Origin: Nitrosopumilus sp. LS_AOA
GTDB taxonomy: Archaea; Thermoproteota; Nitrososphaeria; Nitrososphaerales; Nitrosopumilaceae
Reading direction: 5' to 3'
DNA: 64,000 nt
Assembly: GCA_001543015.1 (NCBI GenBank)
Contig: LFLC01000025.1
Span: forward strand, 62,001 to 126,000
Shown: in pieces, positions 33,571 through 63,658 of the stretch
Position numbering within the stretch: the first letter of the stretch is position 1
How the letters are laid out: every line of letters starts with the position of its first letter
Program-made: the position numbers and the translations under genes
Notes under the pieces: model-generated
Database searches by the model: none
What the model was told of the DNA's origin: nothing
Seen by the model: only the letters and a program-made list of their open reading frames with translations

Positions 33571-33625
33571 TTAATTCACATCAATCCAATTAATTCAATA
33601 TTAAAAGATTGATTGAAAATAGAAA

Positions 33626-33740
33626 TGCCAGCACTGTTGCTTCCCAAGAGCTCTCGCATCTTAGTAGCACAACAGCGACATCAGGTTTGACTTCCAAGTT
33701 CGGAATGGGATTGGGTCGCACCCTAACGCTATGGCCGGCT
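33626..33740 (-). rRNA. rrf: 5S ribosomal RNA
   Basis: Reverse strand GCCGGCCATAGCG...GGGTGCGACCCAATCCCATTCCGAACTTGGAAGTCAAACC...; terminal stem GCCGGC/GCTGGC. Confidence 0.93.
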
Positions 33741-33835
33741 TGTATATTGAAGTGAAATTCTCATCTATTAACGTAACGAAGTATTGGAAATGGGTTCAAA
33801 ATAGGTATAAAGCAAAGAAAATACCGAATTACCAC

Positions 33836-41059: not shown

Positions 41060-41153
41060 GTTCCAGTGGTGTAGACCGGTCAAGCATTCTGCCCTTTCAA
41101 GGCAGAGATCCCGGGTTCAAAATCTAACGATGAAAATCCCGGCTGGAGCACCA
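41060..41153 (+). tRNA. tRNA-Glu(TTC) with 15-nt intron (41122-41136) in the T-loop; encoded CCA
   Basis: GTTCCAG/CTGGAGC acceptor, anticodon loop CTTTCAA, T-stem CCGGG/CCCGG with 22-nt loop TTCAAAATCTAACGATGAAAAT. Confidence 0.92.
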
Positions 41154-41167
41154 AGATTTAATTACTT

Positions 41168-42046
41168 ATGAAAAAATTTTTTCAATTAGGCATCTTGGAC
41201 AGAAAAAATATGGAGATTAACCCTTTGCTTGAAACATATGGAAAATATATTAAAAAAATTGATCAAGCCTTAGATGCTGAACTATCATTATATTCTGAAT
41301 CTGAATTTATTGAGCCTCTAAAATATTCCTTAGAAGGTGGAAAGCGGATTAGACCCATCATTTTGACTTTAGCTGCTGAAAGTGTTGGTAAAGTTGATGA
41401 TAATACATTTTCAGCATCTTGTGCAGTTGAATTTTTACATATGGAATCAATAATTCATGATGATATTATCGATAATGAAACTATGAGGAGACAAAAGGAT
41501 CCATTCCATATCAAATTCGGTTACAATACAAGTGTTCTAACAGGAGATTTTGTTTTAGGATTAATTCTTGCAATATGTTCTAGGTTAGATAATGCTAGAA
41601 TTACAAAAGATTTGGCATCAACTGCAATGTTAATGAGTGAAGGAGAAATGATTGAAAATAGATTAGAAACTAGTGAAGATGTTACTTTTGATGATTATCT
41701 TAAAGTAATTGAATATAAAACAGCAACAGCATTTGAAGCTGCATCTAGAATAGGTGGAATTATTGCAAATGGGACTGAAGAGCAAATCGAAGCATTGTCT
41801 GAATATGGATTAAACCTTGGAATAGCTTATCAAATTAGAGATGATTTGTTTGATTGGAAAAATGAAGATAAATTGTTTAATACATTAATTAAAAAAAGTG
41901 CAGACCCAAGAGATGTTTTTAACAAAATGGAAGATTTGTTAAAAGAATATGCAGAAAAAGCAAGAGCCGGATTAAGAAGAATTCCAGATAGTGATGCAAA
42001 AATGAATCTAGAAAATTTAATTAAATTTACTTCGTTTAAGGCATAA
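41168..42046 (+). CDS. Second polyprenyl diphosphate synthase
   Basis: EGGKRIRPIILTLAAE, IIHDDIIDNETMRR, AYQIRDDLFD. Confidence 0.92.
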   Translation: MKKFFQLGILDRKNMEINPLLETYGKYIKKIDQALDAELSLYSESEFIEPLKYSLEGGKRIRPIILTLAAESVGKVDDNTFSASCAVEFLHMESIIHDDIIDNETMRRQKDPFHIKFGYNTSVLTGDFVLGLILAICSRLDNARITKDLASTAMLMSEGEMIENRLETSEDVTFDDYLKVIEYKTATAFEAASRIGGIIANGTEEQIEALSEYGLNLGIAYQIRDDLFDWKNEDKLFNTLIKKSADPRDVFNKMEDLLKEYAEKARAGLRRIPDSDAKMNLENLIKFTSFKA

Positions 42047-63565: not shown

Positions 63566-63639
63566 GGGTCTATGGCGCAGCCAGGTAGCGCACCGGACTT
63601 TTAATCCGGTTGTCTAGGGTCCGAATCCCTATAGACCCG
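63566..63639 (+). tRNA. tRNA-Lys(TTT)
   Basis: GGGTCTA...TAGACCC acceptor, anticodon loop CTTTTAA. Confidence 0.95.
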
Positions 63640-63658
63640 CTACTTTTCTTTATCTTAT

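Follow-up and report, generated by a model that had tools for sequence, protein, structure and literature searches.

A 15-nt T-loop intron at position 59/60 of tRNA-Glu(UUC) in a Nitrosopumilus-like archaeon, and its presence and absence among relatives

Archaeal tRNA introns range from 11 to 129 nt, with medians mostly between 12 and 25 nt, and position 59/60 is one of the sites listed for them (PMC4090602). The non-canonical introns described at this position (PMC4090602, with the work of Sugahara et al., 2008 and Chan et al., 2011 that it cites) share with the one analyzed here the site, the logic of the bulge-helix-bulge motif and the length class, but that account stresses Crenarchaeota and Nanoarchaeota, whereas our case is thaumarchaeal and has a very short inner helix (2 bp) closing an N4 loop. 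The description of tRNAscan-SE 2.0 reports 107 non-canonical tRNA introns in the Thaumarchaeota genomes examined, together with a dedicated Thaumarchaeota bulge-helix-bulge model (PMC8450103), and our intron shares lineage and kind with those. Neither the 59/60 site nor the 15-nt length falls outside the described variation. The first-pass annotation had regarded the T-loop placement and the short length as non-canonical; this holds for the site, which is non-canonical though listed, and not for the length, which is unexceptional in the 11–129 nt range. Our literature searches retrieved no published description of this intron by name, and perhaps it is already contained in a tRNA database.

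The window (the whole 64,000 nt stretch of DNA analyzed, GC 32%) belongs to an assembly of 1.93 Mb that is 98.6% complete. The tRNA-Glu(UUC) gene occupies positions 41060–41153 of the forward strand, on which all the parts given below also lie. Its acceptor, D, anticodon and T stems are all complete, and CCA is encoded. The anticodon TTC (41096–41098) is evident from the sequence and from the ARAGORN calls on the spliced form and on intronless orthologues. The two strands of the T-stem, CCGGG (41111–41115) and CCCGG (41138–41142), enclose 22 nt, and the stem serves at the same time as the outer helix of the splicing motif. Within this loop TTCA (41116–41119, tRNA positions 54–57), the exon strand of the 4-bp central helix, faces the intron strand TGAA (41131–41134). 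These are flanked by the 5′ bulge AAA (41120–41122, predicted cut 41121/41122) and the 3′ bulge AAT (41135–41137, predicted cut 41136/41137), and the 2-bp inner helix TC:GA (41123–41124 with 41129–41130, spanning 41123–41130) closes the loop TAAC (41125–41128), which elsewhere is 3–8 nt long and freely variable. Exon 1 (41060–41121) would thus comprise tRNA positions 1–59, and exon 2 (41137–41153) T60, the 3′ strands of the T-stem and acceptor, the discriminator A and CCA. When the 15 nt between them (41122–41136) are taken out, the T-loop reads TTCAAAT. The tRNA identity, the T-loop intron and the exact layout of its fold all read as first described.

The unspliced gene was missed in the window by both ARAGORN and the Rfam tRNA model, and by the latter also in the genome-wide search, so that an annotation relying on these tools would lack an essential tRNA-Glu(UUC). 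ARAGORN calls tRNA-Glu(ttc) in the window gene only after removal of the intron; the same removal gave this call in all seven relatives tried, the unspliced form being missed in all but one of the window gene and its relatives, and intronless orthologues are called directly. A silent gene in standard tRNA finders is what would be expected of a pseudogene, its T-loop broken by an insertion and the cell using another tRNA-Glu, and a tRNA-Glu(CUC) does exist elsewhere in the genome (L010). However, a CUC anticodon is not expected to read GAA, and the tRNA census of the window genome (Rfam, BLAST and pattern searches) found no second tRNA-Glu(UUC), the intronless copy that the first-pass annotation had named as decisive against a working gene. 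The exons are also intact, with a fully paired acceptor and CCA present, and the structure of the insert is conserved throughout the family. Given this conservation and the single-copy status we reject the pseudogene reading, which is extremely improbable. No group I or other self-splicing intron family of Rfam matched in the window, and 15 nt is far too small for one. The gene is almost certainly, judging from sequence comparison, a functional, single-copy tRNA-Glu(UUC) carrying a 15-nt intron at position 59/60 that would be removed by protein enzymes. In the same census, the genes for tRNA-Val(CAC), Met, Gln(CTG), Tyr and two Ser (L031, L032, L036, L038, L039, L040) also appeared interrupted; the Rfam model further failed to detect Trp and some Leu tRNAs, whose genes may likewise contain introns. 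A looser pattern search of this genome found no convincing second T-loop intron.

A way to judge the insert is to compare the same gene in related genomes, as had been suggested at the outset. The closest named locus is that of the Thaumarchaeota MAG isolate NORP47 (L084; 97.5% identity over 8 kb) and the other named records with the gene are mostly Nitrosopumilus or Nitrosarchaeum, names from which we infer a Nitrosopumilus-like host within the family Nitrosopumilaceae. A search with the body of the tRNA recovered the orthologue across much of the family and in 93 stretches of named genomes; among the 80 retrieved, 54 have the intron and 26 do not. The synteny is very well preserved: in 146 of 150 loci (some genomes are counted twice) the tRNA lies directly upstream of a prenyl (GGPP-type) diphosphate synthase gene, found in the window at 41168–42046 (+), and in each of the four exceptions the contig or locus ends no more than about 100 bases away. 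The intronless T-loop is exactly TTCAAAT, or TCCAAAT, and once TTCGAAT, and the segment that these same-locus orthologues lack is precisely 41122–41136, up to the register ambiguity of AAA. In the family the intron measures 14–19 nt (15–18 in the extracted forms, 14 in G120 and 19 in G528) and outside its loop it is near-constant across genera, in the form ATC-loop-GATGAAA. Natural tRNAs with odd arms exist, and the 22-nt loop might be thought to stay in the mature molecule as an enlarged T-arm. Against this, the same gene of the relatives has a normal 7-nt loop, removal of the insert always restores the intronless sequence, and insert and exon covary in just the manner expected of an endonuclease substrate (see below); a retained loop can hardly be the right explanation. 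Taken together, these observations indicate that the archaeal tRNA intron is real and that the gene looks functional.

The comparison also supports the details of the predicted bulge-helix-bulge. All 34 distinct intron forms keep the six pairs of the 4-bp central and 2-bp inner helices, the latter being present in every form, and a 3-nt bulge fits on each side of every extracted form. The strict version of the motif has an outer and an inner helix around this core, whereas relaxed versions lack one of them; here both are present, the outer one being the T-stem. The second pair of the central helix varies between T:A and C:G, with the exon sequence TCCA always accompanied by TGGA in the intron (TTCA:TGAA to TCCA:TGGA), and in one relative the inner helix changes from TC:GA to the compensated CC:GG. 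Among the 22 forms of equal length, 100% of the cells are paired, against 30–64% when the partners are slid. The covariation within the family involves two variable pairs only and is real but thin. A random AT-rich insert of 15 nt has a chance of about 0.2% of forming all six pairs, and we reject chance pairing because the fold is conserved and covaries across relatives. The exact cut is ambiguous from the window sequence alone, in which AAA occurs on both sides, and only relatives whose 3′ bulge is AGT or ACT settle it. Given the mature loop TTCAAAT, the AGT forms exclude earlier registers, and cleavage behind the second nucleotide of both bulges yields TTCAAAT or TCCAAAT in 34 of 34 forms. 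The removal of 41122–41136 that had been proposed from the single sequence thus agrees, as a prediction, with the orthologues with and without intron and with the AGT/ACT bulges.

Folding energy by itself points elsewhere. For the T-arm of the window, a 3-bp AUC/GAU hairpin (−9.8 kcal/mol) is favored by about 1.8 kcal/mol over the bulge-helix-bulge (−8.0), and the computed probability of the central helix in the precursor is about 0.1, so the case for this helix rests on comparison and not on energy. For relatives with TCCA, the most favorable fold is the bulge-helix-bulge itself. Our assumption is that the weaker conformer is the one chosen by the enzyme, and we have taken the comparative evidence as decisive.

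Beyond the family, we have used a phylum-wide pattern that accepted either purine at tRNA position 57 and either pyrimidine at its partner. The 53 matches outside the family comprise 31 A:T, 19 G:C, three G:T and no A:C combinations, so that position 57 and its partner covary (Fisher p = 1.3e-11). Of the ten phylum loci examined, none is recognizable as a tRNA with its insert in place and eight are once it is taken out; the isotypes of these eight include Gly, Phe, Glu(CUC) and Ser, although two of the eight spliced calls (L209, L215) have odd anticodons and long additional introns. Many other genomes of the phylum have the 59/60 T-loop motif, and the tRNAs that carry it belong to several isotypes. 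The other two loci (L216 and L217, with inserts of 28 and 30 nt) gave no tRNA when spliced and are probably chance matches.

The window genome encodes two splicing-endonuclease proteins (PF01974), one matching solved crenarchaeal subunits (E = 1.9e-44) and the second more diverged, and one RtcB. The Thaumarchaeota endonuclease has been reported to be of the alpha2-beta2 type (PMC4090602, PMC3218864), and two subunits fit such a stoichiometry. Enzymes of the (alpha-beta)2 and epsilon2 class have a broad substrate range, accepting relaxed motifs and introns outside the anticodon loop, including T-loop and other non-canonical ones (PMC6379350, PMC12397907); compared with them, the two subunits here are assigned by sequence only. 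That the 4-bp helix with 3-nt bulges is the layout recognized by the endonuclease, as initially claimed, appears well founded in view of the exon-intron covariation and of these encoded proteins. Before splicing, the TTCA with which the T-loop begins would pair with TGAA of the intron, and the resulting 4-bp helix, flanked by the 3-nt bulges, would stack on the T-stem. A heteromeric (alpha-beta)2-type endonuclease would then cleave both bulges behind their second base, and ligation of 41121 with 41137 by RtcB would produce the T-loop TTCAAAT. If this loop is formed by ligation, the tRNA elbow could form only after splicing. One might speculate that the intron is kept as a maturation checkpoint, the open T-loop delaying elbow folding and T-loop modification until splicing has occurred; we consider this quite improbable, but were it true, the repeated loss of the intron would mark lineages that dropped control of their only GAA-decoding tRNA.

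The history of the intron can be followed on a midpoint-rooted tree built from one gene, the linked synthase, in which some branches are long; of its 115 rows, 82 carry the intron and 33 do not. Six changes of intron state occur on this tree, at least five of them being forced by well-supported branches, compared with 28.8 changes when labels are shuffled. The tree gives no direction by itself, and its six changes could also represent several independent gains at the same site, particularly as the phylum-wide recurrence of 59/60 T-loop introns suggests a favored insertion point. Independent gains are nonetheless unlikely, the intron sequence being near-constant outside the loop in different genera and every deep branch being occupied by intron-bearing lineages. 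Three genomes of another family of the same order (G125, G193, G196) have an intronless tRNA-Glu(UUC), and with intron-bearing lineages on every deep branch, a single gain and repeated loss is the simplest scenario. Most likely there was one early gain near the base of the family followed by at least five precise losses. The direct repeat AAAATC (41119–41124 and 41133–41138) that flanks the intron has a spacing of 14, and deletion between its copies is rejected as the route of loss, removing 14 and not 15 nt; a precise loss needs a spacing of 15, which only the 3-nt AAA repeat fits. Deletion between these short AAA repeats and recombination with a copy of the mature tRNA are the candidate routes. 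What our comparison adds to the described introns is that the same one appears to have been cleanly lost several times in close relatives. It is ordinary in kind and modestly useful as a system for intron loss: dozens of close genomes offer the orthologue with and without intron beside the same neighbor, leaving the mechanism of precise loss open to test.

Some minor observations were also made. In the Nitrosarchaeum MAG CoA_2_bin.4 (L132:360–1160) the T-arm of tRNA-Glu runs straight into the downstream synthase gene at about its codon 40, and the tRNA lacks its acceptor 3′ strand, reflecting either a deletion or an error in the MAG assembly. U is near-universal at tRNA position 55. The tRNA-Lys(UUU) of the window (63566–63640, +) has the T-loop TCCGAAT, with C at this position, and C55 is likewise found in the TCCAAAT T-loop of tRNA-Glu(UUC) in several relatives (L201–L206, L169). 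The window also contains a stand-alone 5S rRNA gene (33623–33742, −).
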